NCBI GenBank assembly: GCA_902806085.1
Contig: CADCVH010000131.1
Coordinates: 1-57,932 of the forward strand
Source: an uncultured Rubrobacteraceae bacterium
GTDB lineage: Bacteria > Actinomycetota > Rubrobacteria > Rubrobacterales > Rubrobacteraceae
Reading direction: 5' to 3'
Length of the DNA: 57,932 bases
Shown: positions 4,689-30,145 of the stretch, piece by piece
Layout: every line of letters begins with the position of its first letter
How positions within the stretch are numbered: position 1 is the stretch's first letter
Made by a program: the position numbers and the translations under genes
Notes under the pieces: generated by a model
The model's input: the letters and a program-made list of their open reading frames with translations, nothing else
What the model was told of the DNA's origin: nothing
The model's database searches: none

Positions 4689-4762
4689 CGCGCCCGGCAG
4701 GACTCGAACCTGCAACCTGCGGATTAGAAGTCCGCTGCTCTATCCAATTGAGCTACGGGCGC
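4689..4762 (-). tRNA. tRNA-Arg (anticodon TCT)
   Basis: A cloverleaf on the minus strand with a perfect 7-base-pair acceptor stem (4756-4762 with 4690-4696), a T-loop carrying GTTCGAGTCC and an anticodon loop read as CTTCTAA, giving TCT for AGA codons. The CCA end is not encoded. It is the last of three closely spaced tRNA genes, all transcribed leftward. AGA is rare in a GC-rich genome, so this is probably the only tRNA for that codon; that is inference. Confidence 0.93.
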
Positions 4763-4784
4763 AGGCGACGCCGTGCGACGCGAG

Positions 4785-4856
<72 letters not shown>

Positions 4857-4878
4857 CGCCGGTCTTCCGGGCTCTGCT

Positions 4879-4953
<75 letters not shown>

Positions 4954-6407: not shown

Positions 6408-6414
6408 GACTCAG

Positions 6415-6766
6415 TGGAGGCGGCGGGACTCGAACCCGCGTCCGCGAGCGCGCCGTCCGTGAGATTCTACGAGCGTAGCTCCCGGTTTGTTTTCGCCTTT
6501 CGCGACGGACCGGGGCGCCGCCGCGGGGCTAGCCCGTTAAGTGTCCCCCAGAGGCTCCGGGCCAGAACCCCAGGGGTAGAGCCCACTTGATGACACCGGA
6601 CCCCGGGCCGTGGGCCGCCCGGACCGATGGGCTACTCAGTTAATTAAGCAGCCAGAGCCATTTCGTTGTTGGCGTGTATCTTTGGTGCCGGCGTTTTACG
6701 AGTCTCCAGCAAACTCGGCTCGTCTCACTGGACGCTGACCACTCCCGTCGAAGCCAAAACGCCCCC
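6415..6766 (-). ncRNA. ssrA: Transfer-messenger RNA (tmRNA)
   Basis: The RNA is about 352 bases, minus strand. The 5' end matches the conserved GGGGGCGTTTTGGCTTCGAC start, and the 3' end carries a T arm (GGGTTCGAGTCCC) and an acceptor strand CGCCTCC plus A that pairs over seven positions with the 5' GGGGGCG (one G-T). CCA is not encoded. The tag reading frame is at 6644-6673: GCC AAC AAC GAA ATG GCT CTG GCT GCT TAA, giving ANNEMALAA, with the usual ALAA degradation end. With smpB next door this makes the ribosome-rescue pair that tags products of stalled translation. Confidence 0.95.
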
Positions 6767-9202: not shown

Positions 9203-10087
9203 CTATATCTTTCTGAGGAACCTCGTGACCGAGAGGAAGCTGCCGACGACGCCTATTGCGACGCCTACTACGATGAGGATCAGGAGGATGGAGACCGTGT
9301 TGACGGCGTCGGCGGCTATCGGGACGAAGGTCAGCTCCTGGCGCGACCAGTCAACGAAGAGGAAGTTCAGCCAGACGACCGTGAGGGCGGCGAGGCCCGC
9401 GCCGAGGAGGCCCTGGATCAGGCCTTCCAGGACGAACGGCGTCCGCACGAACCCGTCCGAGGCCCCGACGAGCTTCATGACCTCTATCTCCTTGCGGCGG
9501 GCAAAGATGGAGAGGCGGATGGCGTTTGAGATCAGGAGCACGCTCGCGATCAGGAACAGTACCGTCGCAGCGTAGAGGCCCCAGATCATGTATGACGTGA
9601 CGGAGTTGAGCCGCTCGATGGTCTGCTGCGGGTAGCTCAAGTTCTCCTCGTCGTACCCTTCGGCCTCGAGCTTACCCGCCACGCTGTTGGCGAGGTCGGG
9701 GTCGGTGAGCTGTATCTGCAGGGAGGCCGGCAGCACGCCGCGGTCGAGGTTCTCGTAGATCTCGGGCTGCTCCTCGAACGTGTCTTTAAAGGAGGCGAGC
9801 GCCTCGTCCTCGGAGACCCGATTCACGCTGGCGACCTCTTCCCAGCCCTTCGCCTTCTCCTCCAGGGCCGCCATCTCCTCCTGGCCCCGTCCCGGCATAA
9901 AGACCTCGACGCTCACGTCCTCGCGCACCGACCCGATAACGCCCTCGACGTGCGAGCTCACGAGCAGCCCGACCCCGAGGACGAGGATGCAGATGAACGT
10001 GGTGGTGACGGCGGTGATGCTCATGAGCAGGTTCAGGCGGATGTTCTTGAACGCCTCCCCCAGGAAGAAGCCCAGGTTAAACCTCAT
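9203..10087 (-). CDS. ftsX: Cell division protein FtsX
   Basis: A 294-residue membrane protein, the permease-like partner of FtsE, that activates peptidoglycan hydrolases at the division site. It has an N-terminal transmembrane helix (about 25-48), a large extracellular loop with the FtsX ECD (EVFMPGRGQEEMAALEEK...), and three more helices at about 180-280, the four-helix FtsX topology. The start is the ATG at 10085-10087 (MRFNLGFFLGEAFKNIR), the usual family start; it overlaps ftsE by 11 bases. A longer upstream reading is only the ftsE shadow. The operon order is ftsE-ftsX. Confidence 0.95.
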   Translation of the reverse strand: MRFNLGFFLGEAFKNIRLNLLMSITAVTTTFICILVLGVGLLVSSHVEGVIGSVREDVSVEVFMPGRGQEEMAALEEKAKGWEEVASVNRVSEDEALASFKDTFEEQPEIYENLDRGVLPASLQIQLTDPDLANSVAGKLEAEGYDEENLSYPQQTIERLNSVTSYMIWGLYAATVLFLIASVLLISNAIRLSIFARRKEIEVMKLVGASDGFVRTPFVLEGLIQGLLGAGLAALTVVWLNFLFVDWSRQELTFVPIAADAVNTVSILLILIVVGVAIGVVGSFLSVTRFLRKI

Positions 10088-10763
10088 CTGCGTACGCCCC
10101 CTTGACCTTGTCGCGGACGATGCGGCCCTCGTCGAGGGCGACGACCCGCTTGCGCATGACGTCAACCATCTCGCGGTCGTGGGTGGCGACGACGACGGTG
10201 GTGCCTGTGCGGTTGATCCTGTGCAAAAGCTGCATGATGCCGACGCTCGTGTTCGGGTCCAGGTTGCCCGTTGGCTCGTCGGCGACGAGTATAGGCGGCT
10301 GGGAGACGAAGGCCCTGGCGATCGAGACGCGCTGCTGCTCGCCGCCGGAGAGCATCTCGGGGAACTTGTCCATCTTGCCCGAGAGGCCGACGAGGTCCAG
10401 GATCTGGGGCACCTTCGTCTTTATGACGCGCCGTCTCTGTCCCGTGACCTCCATGGCGTAGGCGACGTTCTCCGCGGCGGTCTTGTTCGGGAGCAGCTTG
10501 AAGTCCTGGAAGACGCACCCGATACCCCGCCTCAGTTGCGGGATGTGACGCCGGGAAACAGAGGAGAGCTTCGTGCCGTTTACGAAGATCGCGCCCGCCG
10601 AGGGCTCCATCTCCTTTATCATGAGGCGGACCAGCGTGGACTTTCCCGAGCCGCTGGGCCCGACCAGAAACACGAACTCGCCCTGATCTATCTCGAGGTT
10701 GAGCCGCTCGAGCGCGACCGTGTCCCTGCCATAGACCTTCGTGACGTTGCTGAATCGGATCAT
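10077..10763 (-). CDS. ftsE: Cell division ATP-binding protein FtsE
   Basis: A 228-residue ABC-type ATPase, the cytoplasmic partner of FtsX. Walker A is GPSGSGKST (about 36-44), the signature is LSGGEQQRVSIARAF, Walker B is ILVADEPTGNLD, and the H-loop is VVATHDREM. The N-terminal motif IRFSNVTKVYGRD is characteristic of FtsE. Length is normal. The start ATG has GGAGAGG close upstream. It is separated from the LmeA-like gene by 113 bases. Confidence 0.97.
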   Translation of the reverse strand: MIRFSNVTKVYGRDTVALERLNLEIDQGEFVFLVGPSGSGKSTLVRLMIKEMEPSAGAIFVNGTKLSSVSRRHIPQLRRGIGCVFQDFKLLPNKTAAENVAYAMEVTGQRRRVIKTKVPQILDLVGLSGKMDKFPEMLSGGEQQRVSIARAFVSQPPILVADEPTGNLDPNTSVGIMQLLHRINRTGTTVVVATHDREMVDVMRKRVVALDEGRIVRDKVKGAYADEV

Positions 10764-10876
10764 GACCTCTCCGGATGTGGCTTACCGCCCTCCGCGCGCG
10801 GCGGGGTCCGGCCCGAGGTTCCCCCTCCAGGAACTTTTTCGGCCACTGAAGACCTTAGCAACAAAGAGTGGCATTA

Positions 10877-11593
10877 TCAACCGCCCCGCCCGAGCTCGAT
10901 CCCGGAGACGTTCCCCGTGAGCACGACCGCCCCGTCGGTGGTCCTGGCGTCGGTGATGGTCGCCCCATACGGCAGCCCCTCAACCGGATACCGAAACGCA
11001 GTCCCCGCCAACAGCGAGTCCGCCAGATACCCCGGCACGGCCATCCCGGCCGCCCGCACGGAGCCGGGCCGGAAGACGAGCCCGTTCCCCTCGACGCCGA
11101 CGCCGCCATCGACCTCCACCGGGAAGGTCGCGCCGAGCAACGACGCCTCCGACTTCACGGTCATGCCGCTGCCCCGCACGTCCACGCCGTTTACGGGCAC
11201 GTCGGCGTTCTGCCGTGCCAGCCGCGAGACTTCTTCCTCAGGTACGGTTAGCCGCATACGTCCGGAGATCGGCCCCTCGACGACGGCCGTCCTGCTCCTG
11301 GCGCTCTCGCCCACGTCGACGCTGAACGGGTCGAGGTCCATCGTCACGTTCTCGGCGCGCACGCCCCGCAGATCCGTCGCCCCCGCGGAGATCCGGCCTC
11401 CCGAGAACTCGCCCAGGAGCATCCTCCACTGGGGATCGCTGTCCAACTCCACGTCGGGCCGCCCGGCCAACCCGAGCCGCTCCTGCGCCTCCCGCGCGAC
11501 CAAATTCTCGAGCATGGTCGGCAGGACGAAGTACGGGACCATCACAAACACCAGGACGCCGAGCACGAGCAGGACGAACAGAAGCTTGCGCAT
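10877..11593 (-). CDS. LmeA family phospholipid-binding protein (DUF2993)
   Basis: A 238-residue secreted or membrane-anchored protein. Residues 1-25 (MRKLLFVLLVLGVLVFVMV) form a signal-anchor. The rest is the DUF2993 beta-rich fold, with ENLVAREAQERLGL after the anchor and the block PYGATITDARTTDGAVVLTGNVSG at the end (given in parts). LmeA of mycobacteria binds phospholipid at the cell envelope and helps lipoglycan mannan elongation; that role is only a family guess here. It starts 9 bases after prfB ends and is probably cotranscribed with it. Confidence 0.8.
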   Translation of the reverse strand: MRKLLFVLLVLGVLVFVMVPYFVLPTMLENLVAREAQERLGLAGRPDVELDSDPQWRMLLGEFSGGRISAGATDLRGVRAENVTMDLDPFSVDVGESARSRTAVVEGPISGRMRLTVPEEEVSRLARQNADVPVNGVDVRGSGMTVKSEASLLGATFPVEVDGGVGVEGNGLVFRPGSVRAAGMAVPGYLADSLLAGTAFRYPVEGLPYGATITDARTTDGAVVLTGNVSGIELGRGG

Positions 11594-18282: not shown

Positions 18283-19716
18283 CTAGCCCAATCCCGAGCC
18301 GCCGGCGAGGGCGGAGATCGGGACGATGAGGAGGAAAAACAACGCCGTCAGGAGCGCAAGCACGTAGACGGAGGCCTTGAGAGCGCCGCCCCCGGGCGGC
18401 TCGGCGGCGTCAAGCGTCGGCTTCTCGAAGAACATGTTGCGGATGATGCCGAAGTAGTAGGGCACCGAGAGGACGCTGTTCACGACCAGCGCCCCGACGA
18501 CCACGTAGACCAGCACGGACCCGGACTGGGCCCCGCTGAAGATGATCCAGGCCTTCCCCCAGAACCCGCTGAACGGGGGGATACCGACGAGCGAGGCCAT
18601 AAAAACCCCCATGCTCGCCGCCAGCGCCGGCCTCGTGCGGAAAAGCCCGTTGAAGCTCTTCGCGTCCTCCCCTACGAGGTCAATGACGAGGAAGGCCCCG
18701 AGGTTCATCACCGCGTAGGCGGCGGAGTAGATGAGCACCGCCTCGACCGCCTGCCCCGCGCCCTGCCCCTGCAACGCCGCGAACGCCGCCAGGATGTACC
18801 CGGAATGCGCCACGGAGCTGTAGGCCAGCATCCGCCTCACGTTCCGCTGCCGCAGGGCGGCCAGGTTGCCGACGAACATCGTCAGGATCGCCAGGAAGGC
18901 CATCACCGCCGTCCACGTCGGCCTCGCCTCCGGCATCCCCTCCAGGAGTATCCGGAGCAGGACCGCGAAGAGCGCGGCCTTCGGGGCCACCGAGAGGAAC
19001 GCCGCGGCGCTCGTCGGGGCGCCCTGGTAGGCGTCCGGGGTCCAGAAGTGGAAGGGCGCGGCCGAGACCTTGAACGCGAAGCCGGAGAGGAGCAGCACGA
19101 GGCCGAGCAGGGCGACCGGGGAGAGGCTGCCGGAGAACGTCCTGGCCACGTCCCCGAGAAGGGCCGAGCCGGAGACGCCGTAGATCAGGACGATGCCGTA
19201 CAACAGCACCGAGGAGGCGACGACGCCGGTTATGAGGTACTTCATGCCGCCCTCGGCGCTCTCCCGCCGCCTCCGGTCGAAGGCGACCATCGCGTAGGAG
19301 GGTATCGTCGCGAGCTCTATCGCGAGGAAGATGCCGAAGAGGTCGCGCATGGAGACGACCAGGATGGAACCGAGCACGACCGCGAGGATGAGCGTCAGGT
19401 ACTCCGGGGCGTCGCCCGTGTCGCCGGACCACCGGGCCGCCGCGAGCACGGCGAAGAAGGCGCTTCCGGCCACGATCAGCTTGAAGTAGAGGGCGAAGTT
19501 GTCCACCACGAACCCGCCCCCGAAGAACTCCCCGGAGAACCCGGCCGCGAGCAGGCCGGCGGCGCTCCCGAACACGGCGAGCGCCCCGAGGGCCGCGAGG
19601 CCGGCGACGACCCCGACGCTGCGCTGGAAAAACACGCCGACCATGAGAACCAGGATCAGGAACCCCACCGCCACGAGCTCAGGCAAGAGCGCGACGAAAG
19701 TCTGTCCGGTAACCAC
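18283..19716 (-). CDS. nuoN: NADH-quinone oxidoreductase subunit N
   Basis: A 477-residue antiporter-like proton-pumping subunit of complex I. It is almost wholly hydrophobic, about 14 transmembrane helices. The family helix ELATIPSYAMVAF carries the key TM5 glutamate, and FKVSAAPFHFWTPDAYQGAPTSAAAFLSV (quoted in parts) carries the TM7 lysine motif. Start GTG overlaps the nuoM stop by one base (TAGTG). It is the last gene of the nuo operon. Confidence 0.96.
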   Translation of the reverse strand: MVTGQTFVALLPELVAVGFLILVLMVGVFFQRSVGVVAGLAALGALAVFGSAAGLLAAGFSGEFFGGGFVVDNFALYFKLIVAGSAFFAVLAAARWSGDTGDAPEYLTLILAVVLGSILVVSMRDLFGIFLAIELATIPSYAMVAFDRRRRESAEGGMKYLITGVVASSVLLYGIVLIYGVSGSALLGDVARTFSGSLSPVALLGLVLLLSGFAFKVSAAPFHFWTPDAYQGAPTSAAAFLSVAPKAALFAVLLRILLEGMPEARPTWTAVMAFLAILTMFVGNLAALRQRNVRRMLAYSSVAHSGYILAAFAALQGQGAGQAVEAVLIYSAAYAVMNLGAFLVIDLVGEDAKSFNGLFRTRPALAASMGVFMASLVGIPPFSGFWGKAWIIFSGAQSGSVLVYVVVGALVVNSVLSVPYYFGIIRNMFFEKPTLDAAEPPGGGALKASVYVLALLTALFFLLIVPISALAGGSGLG

Positions 19717-21170
19717 TATCCACCCCCTATCGCGCTAATAACGGCCTCCACGCCCGGACGCTGCACGCTTACCAGAAGCGCGGGGAAGACCCCGAACAGG
19801 ACAAGCAAAACCGCGAGCGGCACCGCCGCCGCCATCTCCATCGGCCTCGCGTCCTCGACGGCCTCGTAAGCCGGCGTCTCTATCGGGCCGAAGACCACGC
19901 GGGCCAGCATATACAACAGGTACATCGCCGAGAGCACGATGCCTAAAGACGCGAGGATGCCCTGCACGGGATAGGCGTCGTACCCGCCCATGATGCTCAT
20001 GAACTCAGAGACGAAGACCGCCAGGCCCGGCAACCCCATCGCCGCCATCGCCCCGAGCGCGAGCAGGCCCCCCGCCCACGGCATCCTGGCCGCGAGGCCG
20101 CCGAGCTCCCGGATCTTGCGCGTCCCCGTCCTCGCCGCGATCACGCCGACAAGCACGAACAGCAACGCCGAATAGAGCCCGTGCGTCACCTGCTGCAACA
20201 CGGCCCCGTTCAGCCCGACCGCGTTCCCGGAGGCCGCCCCGAGCAGGATAAAGCCGAGGGTGCCGATCGAGGAGTAGGCGACGAGCGCCTTCAGGTCGGG
20301 CTGCGCGAAGGCCACGAACGCGCCGTAGATGATGTTTATGACCCCGAACGCCGCCAGGTAGGGCAAGAACGGCTGCACGCCCTGCGGGAGGAGCGGGATC
20401 GCGACCTTGATGAGGCCGTAGGTCCCAAGCTTCGGCAAGATCCCCGAGAGCACCACGTTCGTCGAGATCGGGCTCGAGACGTACACGTCCAGCAGCCAGC
20501 CGTGCAGCGGCACCGCGGGGACCTTCACCAGCAGGCCGAAGAGGATGGGTGCCGCCACCGCGATCTGGGCGGTCCTGCCCAAACCGCCCCCCGCCGAGAG
20601 CGCCTCCATCGCGTAGGTGCCGGCGAGGATGCCGAAGGCCAGGAACCCGGCCAGCATCACGGTGCTGCCGAGGAACGTGTAGACGAAGAACTTTATCGCC
20701 GCCTGGCGGCGGTTCTCGTCGCCCCAGATGCCGACGAGGAGGTACATCGGGATCAGCGTGATCTCGAAGAATATGTAGAACAGGATCAAATCCTCGGACG
20801 CGAAGACCCCGAGCATCCCGACCTCCGCGATAAACAGGATCGCGAAGTACTGCTTGAGGTTCTCCCGCACGTCGTAGGACGCGACCACGGCTATGAGCGT
20901 GAGCAGGGCCGTCAGGAAGAACATCCCGAACCCGAGGCCGTCGAGGCCGACCCGGTAGCCCATGTTGAGCGACTCGATCCAGGTGAAGTCCTGGGTGAGC
21001 GACGGGGCGTCGAGGCCGCTACCGTAGGCGAGGTAGATATAGAGCGTGAGCAGCAGCGGCACCGCCGCCACGGCGAGCGCCGCGTAGCGCAAGGGACGCT
21101 CCTCCTCCGGGAGCAGGAGCATCAGGATCGCGCCGAGAAGCGGGACGAAGATGGTTATCGTCGTGATCAC
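19716..21170 (-). CDS. nuoM: NADH-quinone oxidoreductase subunit M
   Basis: A 484-residue antiporter-like subunit of the complex I membrane arm. The start is the GTG at 21168-21170, overlapping the nuoL stop (GTGA); the open frame runs further but that part is arginine-rich shadow of nuoL. The TM5 region IFFEITLIPMYLLVGIWG contains the conserved glutamate, and VKVPAVPLHGWLLDVYVSSP (TM7 lysine, PLHxWLPD-like) is present. About 14 helices are expected. Confidence 0.96.
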   Translation of the reverse strand: MITTITIFVPLLGAILMLLLPEEERPLRYAALAVAAVPLLLTLYIYLAYGSGLDAPSLTQDFTWIESLNMGYRVGLDGLGFGMFFLTALLTLIAVVASYDVRENLKQYFAILFIAEVGMLGVFASEDLILFYIFFEITLIPMYLLVGIWGDENRRQAAIKFFVYTFLGSTVMLAGFLAFGILAGTYAMEALSAGGGLGRTAQIAVAAPILFGLLVKVPAVPLHGWLLDVYVSSPISTNVVLSGILPKLGTYGLIKVAIPLLPQGVQPFLPYLAAFGVINIIYGAFVAFAQPDLKALVAYSSIGTLGFILLGAASGNAVGLNGAVLQQVTHGLYSALLFVLVGVIAARTGTRKIRELGGLAARMPWAGGLLALGAMAAMGLPGLAVFVSEFMSIMGGYDAYPVQGILASLGIVLSAMYLLYMLARVVFGPIETPAYEAVEDARPMEMAAAVPLAVLLVLFGVFPALLVSVQRPGVEAVISAIGGG

Positions 21171-23149
21171 AGCTTCACCCCCACGGCGAAGGCGGCTATG
21201 GTTATCACCGCTATGAGCGCCACGACGAGGAACGCGTACTGCGCCCCCACGATGACGCCGATGACGAGCACGGCCAGCAGGATAAAGAGCGCGTAGTTCT
21301 GCACCCCGCCCGTCTGGAACCGCTGCAACAGGCCGCCGGTCCCCATGGCGCCGCGCCTGACCCCGCCTACCATCCCGCCGAGCACGTTGCGGTCGAACCC
21401 CCTCGTCGCCCGCCCGAGCCACCTGGCGGCGCGGACGAAGGTCGCGCCGTAGAGCGCGTCGAAGTACCAGCCCTTGTCAAGGAACGTGTGTATCGGCGCG
21501 AACCTCCTCGCCAGGGCCCCGGAGCGTTCCGGCCTCTGGACGTAGAGCGCGTAGGCGAGCCCTATGCCGAGCAGCGCCACGGCCACCGAGATCGCGCCTA
21601 GCAAGAAGCTGAAGGAGTGTTCTTCGAGCCCGAGCGTCTCCGTCGCGAACTCGCTCGGCGTGACGAAAGCGGCGAAGTAGTCCCGGATCGGGAGCCCGAA
21701 GCCCTCGGGGATGCCGACCCAGCCGCTCACCACGGAGAGGAAGGCCAGGATCAGCATCGGCCCGGTCATGATCCCGGGCGACTCGGTTGCGTTCCTGGCG
21801 GCCTCCGTCCGGGGCTCCCCCATGAAGGCCACGAAGATCGCGCGGAAGATGTAAAACGCCGTCAGGAACACGGTCAGCAGCGCCATCGCGAAGAGCACGT
21901 ACAGGTGCTCCTCGTAGGCGGACGCGACGATGGCGTCCTTGGACCAGAAGCCCGCGAAGGGGAAGATCCCCGAGAGCGAGAGCCCGCCGAGGACCATCGC
22001 CCAGAAGGTTATAGGCATCCTGCGCCTCAGGCCGCCCATCTCGAACATGTCGTACGAGTCCATCGCGTAGATGATGCTGCCGGCGCAGAGGAAGAGCAGC
22101 GCCTTGAAGAAGGCGTGGTTGTAGAGGTGGAAGACACCCGCCGTGTAGGAGCCGATCCCGAGGCCAAGCATCATGTACCCGAGCTGGGAGACCGTCGAGT
22201 AGGCGATCACGCGCTTGATGTCCCTCTTCACCAGCGCCATCGTCCCCGCCATAAGCGCCGTGAACCCGCCGATGTAGGCGACGACGAGCATCGCGCCCGG
22301 GCTCTGCACGAAGATGTCGTAGGTGCGGGCCACCAGGTAAACCCCCGCCGCGACCATCGTCGCCGCGTGGATAAGCGCTGAGACCGGCGTCGGCCCCTCC
22401 ATCGCGTCCGGCAACCAGACGTGCAGCGGGAACTGGGCGCTCTTGCCTATCGCGCCGACAAAGACCAGCACCACGGCAGCCGTGAGCAGCGATCCGCCTA
22501 TAAAGCCGGCCTGGGCGGCCTCCGAGATCCCCTCGAAAGCCGTCGTCCCGGTCGTCGACCAGAAGATGATGATCCCGATAAACAGCGCCGCGTCCCCGAT
22601 CCTCGTGACGAGAAAGGCCTTCTGCGCCGCGTCGCGGGCCGAGCGCTTCTCGAACCAGTGGCCGACCAGCAGGTAAGAGCAGACGCCGACAAGCTCCCAG
22701 AAGATGTAGAGCTGGATAAAGTTCGGCGCCAGGACCAGGCCGAGCATCGATGCGGTGAACAGATTGAGTACCGCGTAGAACCAGGAAAACCTGCGGTCGC
22801 CCTCCATAAAGGCGCCTGAGTAGAGCTGGATCATGAGGCTCACGAAGCACACGACGACCAGCATCACCGCCGCCAGGCCGTCGATAAAGACGCCCATCGA
22901 GAAGACGCCGCCGTCGCCGAGGTTTATCCAGGGTTTCGAGAACTCTATGGGCGCGCCGCCGCCCGGGATGATCCCGGCGACGAACAGCAGGGCGAAGACG
23001 GAGAAGACGAGCGAGATCGTCACCCCGAGGATCGCGACGTACTGGGCGTTCTCCTTGAGCACCCTCCCGAAGAGCGCCAGGACCAGAAAGACCAGCGCCG
23101 GCAGCGCGGGTATCGCGGTGATGATTAGTTGTTGGCCGACCGTCTCCAC
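21167..23149 (-). CDS. nuoL: NADH-quinone oxidoreductase subunit L
   Basis: A 660-residue distal antiporter-like subunit with about 16 transmembrane helices and the long lateral helix region near residues 520-590. FWELVGVCSYLLVGHWFEK holds the TM5 glutamate and GKSAQFPLHVWLPDAMEGPT the TM7 lysine. The start GTG follows GGAAGGTGA. Length is normal. It lies 15 bases after nuoK. Confidence 0.97.
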   Translation of the reverse strand: METVGQQLIITAIPALPALVFLVLALFGRVLKENAQYVAILGVTISLVFSVFALLFVAGIIPGGGAPIEFSKPWINLGDGGVFSMGVFIDGLAAVMLVVVCFVSLMIQLYSGAFMEGDRRFSWFYAVLNLFTASMLGLVLAPNFIQLYIFWELVGVCSYLLVGHWFEKRSARDAAQKAFLVTRIGDAALFIGIIIFWSTTGTTAFEGISEAAQAGFIGGSLLTAAVVLVFVGAIGKSAQFPLHVWLPDAMEGPTPVSALIHAATMVAAGVYLVARTYDIFVQSPGAMLVVAYIGGFTALMAGTMALVKRDIKRVIAYSTVSQLGYMMLGLGIGSYTAGVFHLYNHAFFKALLFLCAGSIIYAMDSYDMFEMGGLRRRMPITFWAMVLGGLSLSGIFPFAGFWSKDAIVASAYEEHLYVLFAMALLTVFLTAFYIFRAIFVAFMGEPRTEAARNATESPGIMTGPMLILAFLSVVSGWVGIPEGFGLPIRDYFAAFVTPSEFATETLGLEEHSFSFLLGAISVAVALLGIGLAYALYVQRPERSGALARRFAPIHTFLDKGWYFDALYGATFVRAARWLGRATRGFDRNVLGGMVGGVRRGAMGTGGLLQRFQTGGVQNYALFILLAVLVIGVIVGAQYAFLVVALIAVITIAAFAVGVKL

Positions 23150-23164
23150 TAAGCCGTCACCTTC

Positions 23165-23515
23165 CTAGCCCCTCATCGAGGTGACTTCGTCCACGTTCAC
23201 GGTCCTCCTGGACCTGAACACGGCCAGCACTATAGCAAGACCCACCGCGATTTCCGCCGCGGCTATGGCGATCACGAGCACGGCGTAGCCCACCCCGAGC
23301 CCGCCGGCGTTCGGCAGAAAGTCCGCGAAGGCCACGAGCGTCAGGTTCACGCCGTTTATCATCAGCTCGACGCACATAAAGATCACGACCGCGTTCCTGC
23401 GCACCAGCGCCCCCCACGCCCCGATGGCGAACATGATCGCCCCGACTATGAGGTAAGCCTGGAGCGGCGGCGAAGCCAGCAGCGCATCCAGAACTGACTG
23501 CGCCTGCGCCGGCAT
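23165..23515 (-). CDS. nuoK: NADH-quinone oxidoreductase subunit K
   Basis: A 116-residue three-helix membrane subunit (MrpC-like). The helix NAVVIFMCVELMINGVNLTLVAF contains the two conserved glutamate/asparagine positions of the proton path (E of CVELM). It has about 15 more N-terminal residues than usual (MPAQAQSVLDALLASPP). The ATG overlaps the nuoJ stop in a TAATG arrangement. Confidence 0.95.
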   Translation of the reverse strand: MPAQAQSVLDALLASPPLQAYLIVGAIMFAIGAWGALVRRNAVVIFMCVELMINGVNLTLVAFADFLPNAGGLGVGYAVLVIAIAAAEIAVGLAIVLAVFRSRRTVNVDEVTSMRG

Positions 23516-24051
23516 TACTCCTCCACCCCCCGGTCGACGCCCGTGCCGACCTTCCGGCGGCTAACGACGATCGCCGCGACGATGGCGACCAGCAGCAACA
23601 CGGAGACCACCTGGAAGAGCAGCGCGAAGATCTCCGACCCCGGCGACACCCCGAGCATGTCGCGCCCCAGCTGCGCCACCTCGCGCGGCCCGTTCCCGGC
23701 CTGCGCCGAGCTCCAATCCTCGATCCACAACACGTAAGAGAGGAACGCCCCGACGCCCGCCGCGACGCACAGCCCCGCCCAGAATTGGCGGTTGATTATG
23801 GTGCGGTAATGCCGAACCTGGGGCCTCTGGGTGAACATGATCCCGAACAGGATCACCACCGTAACCGCCCCGACGTAGATCAAGACCTGAAACGCCGCGA
23901 GCGACGGTGCGTTCAGCATCACGAAAAACCCCGCGACCCCAAGAAAAGACCCGGACATAAAGAGCGCCGAGTGGACCACGTTCCGGCTGACCACGACCCC
24001 GAGCGCGGAGACGAGCACCATCCCCGCGAGGAACCCGAACGCTATGGTCAA
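23515..24051 (-). CDS. nuoJ: NADH-quinone oxidoreductase subunit J
   Basis: A 178-residue five-helix membrane subunit. The first helices (GFLAGMVLVSALGVVVSRNVVHSALF, in parts) and the TM3 region with QVLIYVGAVTVVILFGIMF, including the pi-bulge helix, are typical. Its start overlaps the nuoI stop by 4 bases (ATGA) and its stop overlaps nuoK by one base. Confidence 0.95.
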   Translation of the reverse strand: MTIAFGFLAGMVLVSALGVVVSRNVVHSALFMSGSFLGVAGFFVMLNAPSLAAFQVLIYVGAVTVVILFGIMFTQRPQVRHYRTIINRQFWAGLCVAAGVGAFLSYVLWIEDWSSAQAGNGPREVAQLGRDMLGVSPGSEIFALLFQVVSVLLLVAIVAAIVVSRRKVGTGVDRGVEE

Positions 24052-24533
24052 GCCGCCGCCTCTTTCTTCGGCGCCTTCTTCGCGGCCTTGGGCTTCTTCT
24101 TCACGGCCGGCTTGGGGTCTATCGTCGGGTCCACGGGGCGCTCACCGAACTGGCGGGCGAGCTCCAGGCGGTTGTACGCCTGGGCCTCGAACTCCTCCGT
24201 GTGGTAGATGCAGTTCACCGGGCAGACCTCGACGCACAGGGAGCAGTACATGCACCTGGAGTCGTCGATCACGAAACCGACCGCGTAGGGCTTGGCCTTT
24301 CCCGAGCCGTCGGCGTCGCGCTTCTCCTGCTCGATGGAGATGCAGTGGTCCGGGCAGATGCGCATGCACTGCAGGCACGCTATGCAGCGGTCCATGTCCA
24401 CGGTGAGCATCCCGCGGCTGCGCTCGAACGTCTCCTTCTTGTATTCCGGGTACTGCCGCGTGACCTTGTTATCGAAGAGGTGCTTGAGGGTGATCCCCAT
24501 CCCCTTCAAAATTCCCTGTCCTAGCTGGGGCAT
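24048..24533 (-). CDS. nuoI: NADH-quinone oxidoreductase subunit I
   Basis: A 161-residue peripheral-arm ferredoxin-like subunit holding clusters N6a and N6b. Two perfect [4Fe-4S] motifs are CIACLQCMRICPDHC and CMYCSLCVEVCPVNC. The start is the ATG at 24531-24533 (MPQLGQGILKGMGITLKHLF), 17 bases after nuoH. After the core there is a basic tail of about 18 residues, KKKPKAAKKAPKKEAAA, that ordinary NuoI lacks. In this complex NuoI would be the outermost Fe-S subunit, because NuoE, F and G are not encoded here, so the basic tail may help dock an acidic electron donor; that is inference. Confidence 0.96.
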   Translation of the reverse strand: MPQLGQGILKGMGITLKHLFDNKVTRQYPEYKKETFERSRGMLTVDMDRCIACLQCMRICPDHCISIEQEKRDADGSGKAKPYAVGFVIDDSRCMYCSLCVEVCPVNCIYHTEEFEAQAYNRLELARQFGERPVDPTIDPKPAVKKKPKAAKKAPKKEAAA

Positions 24534-24550: not shown

Positions 24551-25564
24551 TTAAAACACCGAAGGGAGCAGGAGCATAGCGCCCGCGGTGACGAACAGCC
24601 AGATGAGACAGACCGGCACGAGTATCTTCCAGCCGAAATCCATGAGCTGGTCCATCCGGAGACGCGGGAGGCTCCACCGGATCCACTGGAACGTGAAGAT
24701 GATGAGCGCCGTCTTTATGGCGAACCAGAGCCAGTTGAAGTTCCCGAGGTCCAAAAACTCGAAGGGCGGCTGCCAGCCCCCCAGGAAAAGCGTGGCGGTG
24801 ATCGCCGACACCAGGGCCATCGAGGCGAACTCGGAGGCCTGGATCAGGCCCCACGTCATCCCGGAGTACTCGACCATGAACCCGCCGACGATCTCGCTCT
24901 CGCCCTCCGGCAAGTCGAAAGGCACCCTTCTGGCCTCCGCCACCCCCGCGATGTAGAACGTGATGAACATCGGCAACTGCGGCAGGAAGTACCAGTGCCA
25001 GAACCCGCCGCTCTGGGAGTTGACCACGTCCTGGAACGAGAGGCTCCCGGAGAGCATTATGACCCCGAGCAGGCTCAGGATCAGCGGCACCTCATAAGAG
25101 ATCATCTGCGCGGCACCCCTCATCGCGCCCAGGAGCGAGAAGGTGGACCGGCTTCCGTAGCCCGCCATGATCAGGCCCAAAGCCCCGATGGAGGTCAGCG
25201 CTATAAAGAACACGACCCCGACGTTGAGGTCCGCGACCACCGACCTCGGCGCGAAAGGCACCACGAGCCAGACGGCCGCCGCCGGGAGGAACATGGCTAT
25301 CGGGGCCCCCAGGAAGATCCACATGTCGGCCCTGTGGGGCATGACGTTCTCTTTGGTGAACAGCTTGACGACGTCGGCCGCCGGCTGCAAGAACCCCCGC
25401 GGCCCGACCCTGTTGGGCCCGTAACGCAGCTGTATGTAGGCGGCAACCTTGCGCTCCGCGAAGGTGAGGATGCCGGCCAGGTTCAGGACCAAAAACAGTA
25501 TGAGGGCGAACGAGAGTAAAAGCCGAATCGGCTCCGCTTCGAGCAGGTTCAGAACCGTCTGCAT
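24551..25564 (-). CDS. nuoH: NADH-quinone oxidoreductase subunit H
   Basis: A 337-residue, eight-helix heel subunit of the membrane arm that forms the quinone chamber with NuoB and NuoD. Signature blocks are AERKVAAYIQLRYGPNRVGPRG (in parts), ADVVKLFTKE, and FDLPEGESEIVGGFMVEYSG. The start is taken as the ATG at 25562-25564, overlapping the nuoD stop (TAATG), as in the neighbouring genes; a GTG four codons upstream is possible. Confidence 0.96.
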   Translation of the reverse strand: MQTVLNLLEAEPIRLLLSFALILFLVLNLAGILTFAERKVAAYIQLRYGPNRVGPRGFLQPAADVVKLFTKENVMPHRADMWIFLGAPIAMFLPAAAVWLVVPFAPRSVVADLNVGVVFFIALTSIGALGLIMAGYGSRSTFSLLGAMRGAAQMISYEVPLILSLLGVIMLSGSLSFQDVVNSQSGGFWHWYFLPQLPMFITFYIAGVAEARRVPFDLPEGESEIVGGFMVEYSGMTWGLIQASEFASMALVSAITATLFLGGWQPPFEFLDLGNFNWLWFAIKTALIIFTFQWIRWSLPRLRMDQLMDFGWKILVPVCLIWLFVTAGAMLLLPSVF

Positions 25565-26748
25565 TACTTGTCCCACGCCCCCGACACGGGATCTATGAGG
25601 CCCATGATCGGCATGATGTCAGGCAGGTAGTGGCCCGGCACGATCTCCTGCAACAGCTGCATGTTGACGGTGCACGGGGTCCGGTAGTGCACCCGGTAGG
25701 GCGTGTCCGAGCCGTCGGAGACGACGTGGACCGCGTACTCGCCGCGCGCGGACTCGACCCGGCCGATGCCGTCCCCCTCCGTCGGGCGGATGCGGCGGCC
25801 CATGTCCCCCATCACCTCGCCCTCCGGCAGGCTCTGAAGGATCTGCTTTATCATACGGATGCTCTGCCTGACCTCGCCTATCCTGCAGCGGTAGGAGGCC
25901 TCGACGTCGCCGGCCTGATCCGTGACGACGTCGAAGTCGAGGTTCTCGTACCAGCCGTAGGGGTAGTGCTTGCGCACGTCGAATTCCACCCCGGTGCACC
26001 GCAAGGGCACCCCGGTGAGGCCCATCTCCACGGCCTTCTCCGGCGTGATCTTCCCCACGCCGCGCGTGCGGGCTATAAAGATCTCGTTCCCCTCTATGAG
26101 GTCTATAAAGTCGGGCTGTAGCCGGCTCTCGAGGCCCTCTATGTACTCCCACATCTTCTCGGGCATGCCCTCGGGCAGGTCGGCCTTCACGCCCCCGAGC
26201 CGGATGTAGTGGAACATCATCCTGGCGCCGGTCACCTCTTCCATGATCGACTGGATGCGCTCCCGCTCCCTGAAAGCGTACAGGATCGGGGTGAAGGCCC
26301 CGAGCTCCAGCAGCAGGAAGCCCAAAGAGGGTATGTGGCTCATGATGCGGCTGAACTCGTTCATCAAGGCGCGGATGGCGTCGGCCCGCGGCGGTATCTC
26401 CACGTCGAGGAGCTTCTCCACCGCCAGGCAGTAGCCGTACTCCATCGCCATGTTGTTCATGTAGTCGATGCGGTCGGTGATCGGGATGACCGCGGGGTAC
26501 ATGCGGTTCTCGGAGATCTTCTCCTTGCTGCGGTGCAGGTACCCCATCACGGGGTCGCAGCGCACCACGGTCTCCCCGTCGAGCTCCAGTATCAGGCGCA
26601 GCAGGCCGTGCATGGCCGGGTGCTGGGGCCCCATGTTCATGTCGATCGTCTCTAGCCCGAACTCGTCCCTGATGTCGGGGCTGGCGAGCCTGCCGCTCGC
26701 CGGCTGGGTGAGGGCCGTTCCTTCCGTCCTGCGCTCTTCGCCAAGCAT
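25564..26748 (-). CDS. nuoD: NADH-quinone oxidoreductase subunit D
   Basis: A 394-residue 49-kDa subunit of the quinone-binding module. The block [15 protein letters not shown] contains the histidine at the quinone site, followed by [12 protein letters not shown] and, at the C-terminus, [14 protein letters not shown] with the essential aspartate region; the conserved final Arg is replaced by Lys at the very end. The start is the ATG at 26746-26748, behind GGTAGGG and 2 bases after nuoC. The longer open frame upstream is nuoC shadow. Confidence 0.96.
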
Positions 26749-26750
26749 CC

Positions 26751-27242
26751 CTACCTCAACCCCTCGAACGTGCGCCTGGTGCTGATCTCGAAGCTCTTTA
26801 GCAGCGGGTGGTGGTCGAAGTGGTCCTGCCACATGTACAGCCGCCTGAGGTCCGGATGCCCCTTGAAGGCCACCCCGAACATGTCGTAGGCCTCCCTCTC
26901 GTGCCAGTTGGCCGTCGGGTAGATGCCGGTAACGGAGCCGATCACCGGCTCCTCGCCCTCTATGGTCGTCTTCACCCTGACCTGCGCGCCGCGCAGATCC
27001 AGGAGCTCGTAGGTCAACTCGAAGGAGCCCCGCCTATCCACCACGGTGATAAACGAGAGGTGCAGTATGCCCAGGGTCTCGCGCGCGGTGGTCAGCACCG
27101 CCGGCAGATCGCCGGGCTTCACGACCACCAGGACGAGGTTGCCCTCGACCGAGGAGTCTTCGATCCCGTGGCGGCCGTTGAAACCGTCGAGGTAGCGCGA
27201 GAGGCGGGTCTCCAGGTTCCCCTCCGGCAGCGTCACGGCCAT
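26751..27242 (-). CDS. nuoC: NADH-quinone oxidoreductase subunit C
   Basis: A 163-residue 30-kDa subunit. The family signature is [24 protein letters not shown] (in parts), with SITGIYP-like [15 protein letters not shown]. Length is that of the separate NuoC (not fused to NuoD). It starts directly after the nuoB stop. Confidence 0.95.
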
Positions 27243-28058
27243 CTAGGCCGTCCCCTTCGGGTCGGCCGGCTCCTCCGGGGAGCCGTTCTTCTGGCCGCCG
27301 GCCTCGGCGGTGGCCGTCGCGGTCCCGCCGTCGGCGGCCTCCTTTTCGGCGGCCTTCTTCGCCCTCGCCTCCTCCTTGAGCTTCTTTTTGACGTCGGACG
27401 GGATCCAGCCCACGTCCGTCTGGGAGGCGGGGGGCATGCCCTTGCGCTCGAAGACGTAAGTACGATCGAGAGGCCGGATGCCCTCGAGTCGCGGCGCCTT
27501 GCCCGCGCTTATGTCCGTGTACTCCCGCTCGGGGAGGTACTCCATGACGTTGCCGTCGTCGTCGACGAGCGACGGGCGCGGCCTGTTGTAGCCGACCTGC
27601 TGGTCGCGCTCTATCTTTTTCTGCAGCGTCATGATGCCGAAGATGAGCGCCTCGGGGCGCGGCGGGCAGCCGGGCACGTACACGTCAACGGGTATTACCC
27701 TGTCAGCCCCCATCAGGACTGAGTAGCCGTCGAGGAACGGGCCGCCGGAGATGGCGCAGGCCCCCATCGCTATGACCCACTTGGGCTCGGGCATCTGCTC
27801 GTAGAGGCGCGTCATCCGCTCGGCCATCTTGGTCGAAACGGTGCCGGAGACGATCATCACGTCGGCCTGCCGCGGCGAGGCCGTGAAGAAGCCGGCGCCG
27901 AAGCGGTCGAGGTCGTTGTGGGCCATCCCGGTGGACATCATCTCTATGGCGCAGCACGCCAGGCCGAACTGCAGCGGCCAGAGCGAGTTCTTGCGGGCCC
28001 AGTTAAAGAGCTTGTCCGTGCTCGTCGTGAGCATATTCGGTTCGTTGAACTGCTGCAT
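27243..28058 (-). CDS. nuoB: NADH-quinone oxidoreductase subunit B, with long C-terminal extension
   Basis: A 271-residue subunit that holds cluster N2, the final Fe-S centre before quinone. Cysteines are Cys35-Cys36 (LACCAIEMM), Cys101 ([10 protein letters not shown]) and Cys131 (VPGCPPRPE), the full N2 set. The usual NuoB is 160-180 residues. Here about 100 extra residues follow: a charged segment, then [22 protein letters not shown] and a low-complexity tail ending [13 protein letters not shown]. The ATG overlaps the nuoA stop (TAATG); a GTG three codons upstream is an alternative. The extension is unusual and of unknown role. Confidence 0.95.
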
Positions 28059-28447
28059 TACACCCACTTAAGGGCCCCCTTCTTCCAGGCGTAGACGAGA
28101 CCTACCGTCAGGATCACTACAAAGATAACCATCTCCACAAACCCGTAGAGGCCAAGATCCCGGTAGATGACGGCCCACGGGTACAGAAACGCCGCCTCCA
28201 CGTCAAAGATCAGGAAGAGCAGCGCGAATACGTAGTAGCGCACCGGAAAAGGCCGCCACGGGTCGGTCACGGTCGTCTCTCCGGTCTCGTAGATCTGCCC
28301 CTTCGTGCCGGAGCGCCGGCCCGGGGAGAGCAACCGCGCGAGCACCAGGGTCGTCGCCACGAAGCCGGTTATCAGCAACATGAAGATTCCCACGTACAGG
28401 TAGAGTACTCCGTAAGAAGAGCCCTGCTGCAACAGACCTAGAGCCAA
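28058..28447 (-). CDS. nuoA: NADH-quinone oxidoreductase subunit A
   Basis: A 129-residue, three-helix membrane subunit. The loop with [12 protein letters not shown] and the helix [20 protein letters not shown] (containing the conserved D and E) are diagnostic. The start is TTG at 28445-28447, with AAAGG upstream, about 23 bases from the predicted transcription start. It is the first gene of the 11-gene nuo operon. Confidence 0.95.
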
Positions 28448-28477
28448 ACCGAACCTTTCTACCCGATAACTGCCCGC

Positions 28478-28506
28478 AATATACTCTTGTGGGTAAAAAC
28501 TTTCAA
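28478..28506 (-). promoter_or_regulatory. Promoter of the nuo operon
   Basis: Minus strand TTGAAA (28501-28506), 17-base spacer, TATATT (28478-28483). Both boxes are close to the housekeeping consensus. Transcription would begin near 28470, giving a leader of about 23 bases before the nuoA TTG. It lies back to back with the ferredoxin promoter, about 120 bases apart. Confidence 0.75.
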
Positions 28507-28626
28507 GGAGTAACTAAGCGTAGCAAACGACGATTAAGTACCGTCGTCGACGTTCCTTTAGAAGGGCGTAGGAATCCCGTCCTCAGCGGCTCTTGCCGTT
28601 GCGGCCGGCGACGATCCCCCCATCCG

Positions 28627-28654
28627 TTGACAGGGGGTGTGCGTTGGTTAGACT
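28627..28654 (+). promoter_or_regulatory. Promoter of the ferredoxin / RnfC-like operon
   Basis: TTGACA (28627-28632, perfect -35), 16-base spacer, TAGACT (28649-28654). The start would be near 28661, about 32 bases before the GTG of the ferredoxin gene. AGAAGGGA near 28680 serves as the ribosome binding site. The strong match suggests steady, high expression divergent from nuo. Confidence 0.7.
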
Positions 28655-28692
28655 GGATACAAGGGTTCTCGGAGGCGAGAAGGGATATTTTA

Positions 28693-28959
28693 GTGGCCTA
28701 CGTCATAACCGAAGCGTGTATCGGCACGAAGAACACGGCTTGCGTGGGGGCATGCCCGGTCGACTGCATCTACGACGCCGACGACCACTTCGTGATCAAC
28801 CCCGCCGAGTGCATCGACTGCTCGATGTGCATGCCCGAATGCCCGGTGGAGGCCATCTACCCCGGCGACGAAGTGCCCGAGGACATGCAGCACTACGTGA
28901 GCAAGGCCGCCGAGTTCGACTACTCGACGACCGCACCGGGCGTCGAGGTCAATCCGTAG
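28693..28959 (+). CDS. 7Fe-type ferredoxin ([3Fe-4S][4Fe-4S])
   Basis: An 88-residue acidic electron carrier. It starts AYVITEACIGTKNTACV. Cluster cysteines are Cys9, Cys17, Cys21 and Cys25 in the first half, with the long CX7CX3CP spacing typical of the 3Fe site, and Cys40, Cys43, Cys46 and Cys50 (CIDCSMCMPECP) in the second half. This is the Thermus/Mycobacterium FdxA pattern. The GTG at 28693 behind AGAAGGGA is the start. It is the first gene of a two-gene operon with the RnfC-like protein and is divergent from nuo, suggesting it carries electrons to or from complex I. Confidence 0.93.
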   Translation: MAYVITEACIGTKNTACVGACPVDCIYDADDHFVINPAECIDCSMCMPECPVEAIYPGDEVPEDMQHYVSKAAEFDYSTTAPGVEVNP

Positions 28960-28984: not shown

Positions 28985-30145
28985 ATGGCCGAAATAAAGC
29001 AGCGCAGCCTCGAAGAGGTCAAGACCCTTAGCGTCGAGGAGGCCGTGGAGATCATGCGCCAGGCAGGCATCGTCGGCGCGGGCGGCGGCGGTTTCCCGAC
29101 CTACTTCAAGTACAAGTCTCCCCTGCCGCACCTGATCGTCAACGCCACCGAGAGCGAGCCCGGTTACTGGGGGGACAAGCTCCTGCACAAAGAGCACCTC
29201 GACGAGTTCCTCCAGCTCTTCGACGCCTTGAAGACGGTCTTCGGGTTCGAGCAGATCTCCATGGGCGTCCACGAGAAGGACCGGGAGTGGTTCGCCGACT
29301 ACGCCGAGCACGCCGGCGACGGCGTCTTCGACATCCGCTACGTGCCGAACACGTACGCGCTGGGCGAAGAGAAAACGCTCGTCAAGCACGCCACCGACGC
29401 CAGGGTGCCCCGGTTCGTGGACACCCCGGACGGCATAAGGCGCCCCGGGATGCCGCCGGACGTCGGCAAGGTCATCAACAACACGGAGACCTTGCTAAAC
29501 GTCTACAACGCGCTCTTCCTCGGCAAACCCCTTACCACCAAGTTCTTCACCCTCTACGGCGAGGAAATCGAGACGAACGTCTACGAAACGCCGATAGGCG
29601 CCGCGGTGAGCGAGGTCCTGAAGATCGCGGGCCTGGGCCTGGAGGATTCTGGCCACCTCTCGGTCCTGGACGGTGGGCCCTACCTCCACGACGTCAGCAT
29701 CGAGGCCGTGGGCGAGGGCGACGCCTACGTGCGCCGGATGACCAACGCCCTCTTCCTGATCCCGCGTGGCCGGCAGGGCAAGGAGTACGCCAACATAGAG
29801 ACGGAATGCCCCGAAGACGGCATCGTCTCCCTGGTCGGCAAGATCTCGGGCGTGGACCTCCCCTTAGGCGGCGGCCTGTTAAAGCCGGCCACGCCGCTCG
29901 TCTGCGAAGGCGACGAGGTGGAGTACGGGCAGAAGATAGGAGAGCCGGTTGACGAGGGCTTCTCCATCGGCGTCTGGGCGAGCGTGGGGGGCGCAATCTC
30001 CACTATAGAGAACGACATCGTCGCCATCTCGGGCGGCGCGATTCCCCAGGAGGATGCTGAAGCCGAGGCCGAGGCGACGATGGCCGGCGGCGCGTCACCC
30101 CGCGGCGAGGCCGAGCCTTTCCGGGAGGCCGACTCGAGCAAATAG
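28985..30145 (+). CDS. RnfC/PduS-like NuoF-fold protein without Fe-S cysteines
   Basis: A 386-residue protein. Residues 28-190 form a NuoF/RnfC-type FMN/NAD fold: GAGGGGFPTYFKY (31-43), VNATESEPGYWGDK, GEEKTL (127-132), and GMPPDVGKVINNTETLLNVY (155-174). An SLBB-like segment follows (180-260). Residues 295-345 form the RnfC-type barrel hybrid (LLKPATPLVCEGDEVEYGQK). In RnfC, PduS and NuoF a cysteine-rich Fe-S part is present; here the only cysteines are Cys275 and Cys307, so no cluster can form. The tail is acidic and low-complexity. Its operon partner is a ferredoxin, which may supply the missing Fe-S centres. Function is unproven: possibly NAD(P)H or flavin electron input to complex I. Confidence 0.75.
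   Translation: MAEIKQRSLEEVKTLSVEEAVEIMRQAGIVGAGGGGFPTYFKYKSPLPHLIVNATESEPGYWGDKLLHKEHLDEFLQLFDALKTVFGFEQISMGVHEKDREWFADYAEHAGDGVFDIRYVPNTYALGEEKTLVKHATDARVPRFVDTPDGIRRPGMPPDVGKVINNTETLLNVYNALFLGKPLTTKFFTLYGEEIETNVYETPIGAAVSEVLKIAGLGLEDSGHLSVLDGGPYLHDVSIEAVGEGDAYVRRMTNALFLIPRGRQGKEYANIETECPEDGIVSLVGKISGVDLPLGGGLLKPATPLVCEGDEVEYGQKIGEPVDEGFSIGVWASVGGAISTIENDIVAISGGAIPQEDAEAEAEATMAGGASPRGEAEPFREADSSK

Follow-up and report, generated by a model that had tools for sequence, protein, structure and literature searches.

The window analysed here, a stretch of 57,932 nucleotides from an uncultured Rubrobacteraceae bacterium, contains a ferredoxin gene and a flavoprotein gene that together diverge from the genes for a complex I. 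The open reading frame at positions 28985-30145 of the plus strand is a real gene of 386 codons, which has been kept across the Rubrobacteraceae with dN/dS values of 0.13-0.19 against four relatives. On the basis of Pfam matches, an AlphaFold model, fold matches in the PDB and a family tree, its product was assigned as an Fe-S-free, NuoF/PduS-like flavoprotein belonging to clade A of the family described below. Located 25 nucleotides upstream on the same strand is the gene for an FdxA-like ferredoxin of the 7Fe type (28693-28959), which comprises 88 residues when read from its GTG start codon. Both genes are under purifying selection.

A divergent intergenic region of 245 nucleotides (28448-28692) separates the ferredoxin gene from nuoA, the first gene of a complete nuoABCDHIJKLMN operon on the minus strand that is devoid of nuoE, nuoF and nuoG. 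nuoA (28058-28447) was recognised by reading its sequence and by its position in the operon, the order of which is conserved in relatives, and nuoB (27243-28067) by the four visible N2 cysteines. These genes are followed by nuoC (26751-27242), nuoD (25564-26832; PF00346), the true start of which is probably downstream of position 26832, and nuoH (24551-25576). nuoI (24048-24533) has two Pfam Fer4 matches, and its product carries the CxxCxxCxxxCP motif twice and ends in a Lys-rich tail. The remaining genes are nuoJ (23515-24051; PF00499), nuoK (23165-23515; PF00420), nuoL (21167-23149; PF00361 and PF00662), nuoM (19716-21182; PF00361) and nuoN (18283-19716; PF00361), which is the last gene of the operon with no nuoE, nuoF or nuoG behind it. 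Elsewhere in the window, a tmRNA gene and three tRNA genes are found on the minus strand (6412-6766 and 4689-4953). The same assembly also includes an 8.4-kb contig (G000:C75, locus L003) with a second copy of the locus in the same gene order, its flavoprotein being 87% and its ferredoxin 97% identical. This copy probably derives from a second strain in the assembly, or represents a duplicate.

Residues 25-174 of the flavoprotein (29057-29506) match the Pfam family Complex1_51K (PF01512) with 97.9 bits at a cut-off of 31.2. The protein thus passes the gathering score and is a member of this superfamily of FMN domains. A further match of 31.8 bits, at a cut-off of 25.6, places an RnfC barrel (Pfam RnfC_N) at residues 293-347 (29861-30025), where it forms a C-terminal barrel-sandwich domain. 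The SLBB domain stays under the Pfam detection level, and no Pfam match was obtained for Fe-S families in the protein, including the domain for the N3 [4Fe-4S] cluster of NuoF (PF10589). The resulting order of an FMN domain, an SLBB domain and a C-terminal barrel is that of PduS. An AlphaFold model built from an alignment of 24 sequences (pLDDT of 77.7, pTM of 0.80) showed, for residues 1-272, a match to RnfC with a Z-score of 19.1 and an rmsd of 3.1 Å over 243 residues, and a match to NuoF with a Z-score of about 17. The match stops around residue 341 of NuoF and residue 363 of RnfC, which we take to be about where the Fe-S domains of these two proteins start. The presence of a NuoF-like fold, an SLBB-like region and a barrel, as put forward in the original prediction, is confirmed by Pfam, by the comparison of the model with RnfC and NuoF, and by an alignment with PduS-like proteins.

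The nearest NCBIfam models, rnfC, RsxC and PrdC, all scored far under their cut-offs. For the RnfC model TIGR01945 the score was 128.1 bits against 245.95, and for the nuoF_fam model TIGR01959 it was 30.7 bits against 558.65. The N-terminal barrel and the two [4Fe-4S] clusters that characterise RnfC were not found in the flavoprotein, its barrel being at residues 293-347. The barrel is C-terminal in PduS but N-terminal in RnfC (PMC1796856). The flavoprotein shares the former arrangement with PduS, and the two [4Fe-4S] clusters that PduS carries between SLBB domain and barrel are gone together with the dicluster block. The protein of 386 residues belongs to the NuoF/RnfC/PduS flavoprotein superfamily as a member without Fe-S clusters.

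The exact site of this absence was apparent from two actinobacterial PduS-like relatives of about 445 residues (L101 and L102), in which a dicluster Fe-S domain is placed between the SLBB domain and the barrel. Upon alignment with these proteins, a block of about 115-120 residues was the sole part missing from the flavoprotein and from its whole family, the site of the absent block lying between residues 260 and 283 (29762-29833). The loss of the Fe-S domain is thereby directly visible. As had also been noted beforehand, the flavoprotein has exactly two cysteines, namely Cys275 (29807-29809) and Cys307 (29903-29905). Neither of them is conserved and some members of the family are devoid of cysteines, which means that no cluster can be formed in the flavoprotein.

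The pocket for FMN and NAD has not been lost, although its loss would have spoken against the original prediction. The Gly-rich loop at residues 31-39 (G31AGGGGFPT), N53, E56-S57-E58 and D64 (N53ATESEPG...D64), Y124, G127-E128-E129 (G127EE129), and N165 and N166 (N165N166) are all invariant or almost invariant. Five of these residues, E56, S57, E58, D64 and E128, are invariant in 24 sequences and correspond to E95, S96, E97, D103 and E184 of Aquifex aeolicus NuoF, which are active-site or NADH-contact residues (PMC6560083). The backbone contact made by G394 of NuoF has disappeared, because this residue belongs to a portion of NuoF for which the flavoprotein has no counterpart.

The ferredoxin next to the flavoprotein indeed appears to be a two-cluster protein. 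Its cysteines at positions 9, 17, 21, 25, 40, 43, 46 and 50 are invariant in all copies compared that are linked to clade A, and they have the Cx7CxxxCxxxC ... CxxCxxCxxxC spacing of 7Fe FdxA proteins. We take this to be the same seven-iron spacing as that of the cysteines 8/16/20/24/39/42/45/49 of Azotobacter vinelandii FdI. In view of this spacing, the two clusters are probably a [3Fe-4S] and a [4Fe-4S] cluster. The ferredoxin matched FdxA_Actino at 3.2e-25, its scores remaining under the NCBIfam cut-offs for FdxA proteins (88.4 against 125 for FdxA_Actino and 63 against 65 for FdxA_fam). A second ferredoxin of the FdxA type is encoded elsewhere in most genomes of the family. The net charge is -14 for the ferredoxin and -25 for residues 1-350 of the flavoprotein.

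Homologues of the Fe-S-less flavoprotein were detected in 24 of 25 Rubrobacteraceae genomes, several of which are fragmented metagenome assemblies. In a scan of 296 genomes across the phylum Actinomycetota, the Fe-S-less form was confined to this family. The next matches in the phylum were reading frames of 447-475 residues, none of which had an E-value better than about 1e-35. Two of them were read fully, and these carry the Fe-S domain; we therefore do not assume a wider home within the Actinomycetota. Other phyla were searched thinly and with patterns of close relatives only, and rarer cases may occur there. One match from the Tenericutes (L031) was discarded as an Fe-S-less relative, since it is a true RnfC that is followed by what reads as RnfD.

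The family tree divides into two main clades, A and B, the flavoprotein of the window belonging to clade A. At every distinct clade A locus for which upstream sequence was available, the same 7Fe-type ferredoxin is encoded on the same strand, 7-33 nucleotides upstream. Clade A and its ferredoxin occur together in 12 of the 25 genomes, and in no genome does one of them occur alone. Clade B is represented in nearly all genomes of the family, including contig C118 of the genome that carries the window. Its members are also devoid of the Fe-S domain, have no adjacent ferredoxin gene and are not linked to nuo genes. Clade B loci (e.g. L069) have a conserved place between a cluster of acyltransferase, diacylglycerol kinase and AIR carboxylase-like genes and genes for polysaccharide synthesis. 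The ferredoxin is likewise missing from a small group that is sister to clade A (L018, L047, L096 and L099).

Two separate arrangements connect clade A with complex I genes. In the larger group, the pair is positioned between a gene for an M20 peptidase and nuoA, from which it diverges. Where the pair is missing or located elsewhere, the peptidase gene directly adjoins nuoA in most of the nuo operons read (L055-L062). Five other genomes (G016, G017, G018, G063 and the one with L022) have the pair beside a copy of nuoI and away from the nuo operon. The complete genome G016 has a nuo operon without nuoI, and the nuoI that was found adjoins the pair (L058 and L065). The same order of nuoI, ferredoxin and flavoprotein genes is present in G063 (L093), which belongs to the same genus. 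The relocated module of G016 (L065, at about 9944-11322) is flanked by AhpC/TSA-like and hemerythrin-like proteins, which suggests a link with oxygen or peroxide.

We also searched for the NADH dehydrogenase module of complex I in the genome that carries the pair, which is listed as 100% complete with a listed contamination of 4.55%. No match over the cut-off was obtained for the Fe-S domain of NuoF (PF10589), and none for the Fe-S domain of NuoG. The sole match to PF01257 in this genome is a stand-alone protein of 131 residues. We do not consider this protein a NuoE subunit, as it is a small thioredoxin-fold ferredoxin without NuoF or NuoG neighbours. The NuoF Fe-S domain was likewise absent from all 25 Rubrobacteraceae genomes searched, 24 of which had NuoD matches. 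With nuoABCDHIJKLMN present and NuoE, NuoF and NuoG absent, the genome encodes an 11-subunit complex I. Rubrobacter radiotolerans was previously reported to be devoid of nuoE, nuoF and nuoG (PMC6741124). For 11-subunit enzymes in general, the direct electron donor has been called unresolved, and a previous hunt for a donor protein shared by these complexes failed (PMC11238625). The original prediction did not extend to this context, namely the divergent operon for complex I, a genome devoid of nuoE, nuoF and nuoG, and the five other genomes in which the pair is linked to nuoI.

The same genome was inspected for other routes of electron entry. No match to PF01558 was found in it, and a reduction of the ferredoxin by 2-oxoacid:ferredoxin oxidoreductases was therefore rejected. 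An F420-dependent input of the FrhB/FpoF type was rejected as well, because the sole FrhB-like protein more likely serves sulfur assimilation. This flavoprotein (L105/L107, G000:C106:24760) has two ferredoxin motifs, its neighbours read as sulfite/nitrite reductase and ATP-sulfurylase-like genes, and the locus resembles a split version of an F420-dependent sulfite reductase. Proteins resembling NDH-2 are encoded in the genome.

Taken together, these observations suggest to us, with a probability of roughly 55%, that the ferredoxin and the flavoprotein constitute a dissociable NADH-input module for the adjoining 11-subunit complex I. According to this model, which relies on gene content and sequence conservation, NADH would bind to the flavoprotein and reduce its FMN, as the conserved pocket implies. 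The reduced flavin would then pass single electrons to the 7Fe-type ferredoxin, and this transfer would have to occur in trans since no internal cluster is left in the flavoprotein. The acidic ferredoxin may dock on the peripheral arm of the complex, probably at the basic tail of NuoI, from where electrons would flow through the clusters of NuoI and NuoB to menaquinone with concomitant proton pumping. Every NuoI checked in the family has a variable, lysine-rich C-terminal tail with a net charge of +2 to +9, and this would suit docking of a ferredoxin with a charge of -14. The Rubrobacteraceae would in this manner have swapped the fixed NuoEFG module for a two-protein shuttle. The chances that the fixed NuoEFG arm has truly given way to a soluble 7Fe ferredoxin and a NuoF-like flavoprotein without Fe-S clusters, with NADH electrons reaching complex I via a mobile carrier in a lineage without 2-oxoacid:ferredoxin oxidoreductase, seem to us slightly poorer than even.

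The strongest functional evidence for an NADH-input module is provided by the two separate arrangements of clade A with complex I genes, one of which involves nuoI, the expected electron-receiving subunit. The idea is further supported by the complete nuo operon in a genome without NuoE, NuoF and NuoG, by the perfect co-occurrence of clade A with its ferredoxin, by the invariant NADH-contact residues and by the purifying selection on both genes. Moreover, the absence of PF01558 makes NADH the likeliest reductant of the ferredoxin. There are also observations that count against the module. Roughly half of the genomes in the family encode the same complex I but neither a clade A protein nor its ferredoxin, and in these genomes clade B and the second ferredoxin would presumably have to serve complex I. 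The flavoprotein and the ferredoxin are both strongly acidic, which does not favour a simple electrostatic docking, and the charge of the flavoprotein is of no help to its own docking. The NDH-2-like proteins imply that complex I is possibly not the sole NADH oxidase and that NADH can also feed the quinone pool in other ways. Lastly, 7Fe ferredoxins often have lower potentials than NADH.

A conserved FMN/NADH pocket and a conserved ferredoxin partner would also be expected if the pair were a soluble NAD(P)H:ferredoxin oxidoreductase of general function, providing other enzymes with reduced ferredoxin, and its proximity to nuo were incidental. This is what one might conclude from the paralogous clade B, which is unlinked to nuo and resides among unrelated genes whose clustering is conserved. 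However, clade A is tied to complex I genes in two ways, including its co-relocation with nuoI, and the subunits of the N-module are missing from the genome. We therefore regard a general oxidoreductase as rather unlikely. Even less probable, in our opinion, is that complex I takes ferredoxin directly, like the photosynthetic complex I, and that the flavoprotein mainly works in reverse by making NADH from ferredoxin that complex I has reduced at the expense of the proton-motive force, or regulates the ferredoxin pool. The basic NuoI tails and the acidic ferredoxin fit this possibility, as does the use of ferredoxin by related systems, namely RnfC and photosynthetic complex I, but the genome has no 2-oxoacid:ferredoxin oxidoreductase, although other reductants of ferredoxin are possible. 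The PduS-type domain order could point to a reductase for cobalamin or another small molecule that is derived from PduS and uses the ferredoxin as electron carrier. This would be most surprising given that pdu or B12 genes were not seen beside the family loci examined, that PduS-like relatives retain the Fe-S block and that the flavoprotein is linked to nuo. Finally, the original prediction explained the pair by the split of one ancestral flavin-FeS protein, in line with the fused Fe-S domains of RnfC, PduS and NuoF, but this origin has hardly any probability left, as the ferredoxin is of the FdxA type, its cysteines are arranged differently, and the loss of the Fe-S domain in clade B was not accompanied by the gain of a linked ferredoxin.

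The predicted partnership itself has thus stood up in the form of a conserved operon, whereas the ferredoxin does not represent an excised dicluster domain of the PduS/RnfC type. The Fe-S block is missing from both clades, and the ferredoxin is restricted to clade A. This implies that the loss of the Fe-S block probably preceded the pairing, and that the FdxA-type ferredoxin was recruited later.

If the NADH-input module is real, a shuttle can take the place of the NADH dehydrogenase that is built into complex I, and the NuoF/RnfC/PduS superfamily includes a flavoprotein that functions without an iron-sulfur cluster of its own. In any case, the pair is a specific and expressible candidate donor for the 11-subunit complex I of one family, in which the donor question is directly testable.

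Compared with known systems, the flavoprotein is colinear with PduS-like proteins in its FMN domain, SLBB domain and C-terminal barrel and shows 29-31% identity to L101 and L102, its relatives from actinobacteria, but it has no dicluster Fe-S block and is linked to nuo instead of pdu or B12 genes. RnfC, a subunit of the Rnf ferredoxin:NAD+ oxidoreductase that works with NADH and ferredoxin, has the closest solved fold and gave the best NCBIfam match. Unlike RnfC, however, the flavoprotein carries its barrel at the other end and is devoid of Fe-S clusters, its locus includes no Rnf genes, and it has the GEE motif of NuoF instead of the GAEK or GGAK of the RnfC sequences compared. With NuoF/Nqo1 of the 14-subunit complex I it shares the FMN fold, the NADH-contact residues and the neighbourhood of complex I genes, but it differs by the missing N3 Fe-S domain, the extra barrel domain and the lack of NuoE and NuoG partners. 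The ferredoxin resembles 7Fe ferredoxins of the FdxA type in its cysteine spacing and its match to FdxA_Actino, and is set apart by its lower scores and its role as operon partner of a flavoprotein. The complex I itself is encoded by nuoABCDHIJKLMN and lacks nuoE, nuoF and nuoG, in the same way as the 11-subunit enzymes of Desulfitobacterium hafniense and of cyanobacteria (NDH-1). Unlike these enzymes, the one encoded in the window has a specific, gene-linked pair of a ferredoxin and a flavoprotein that is predicted to bind NADH.
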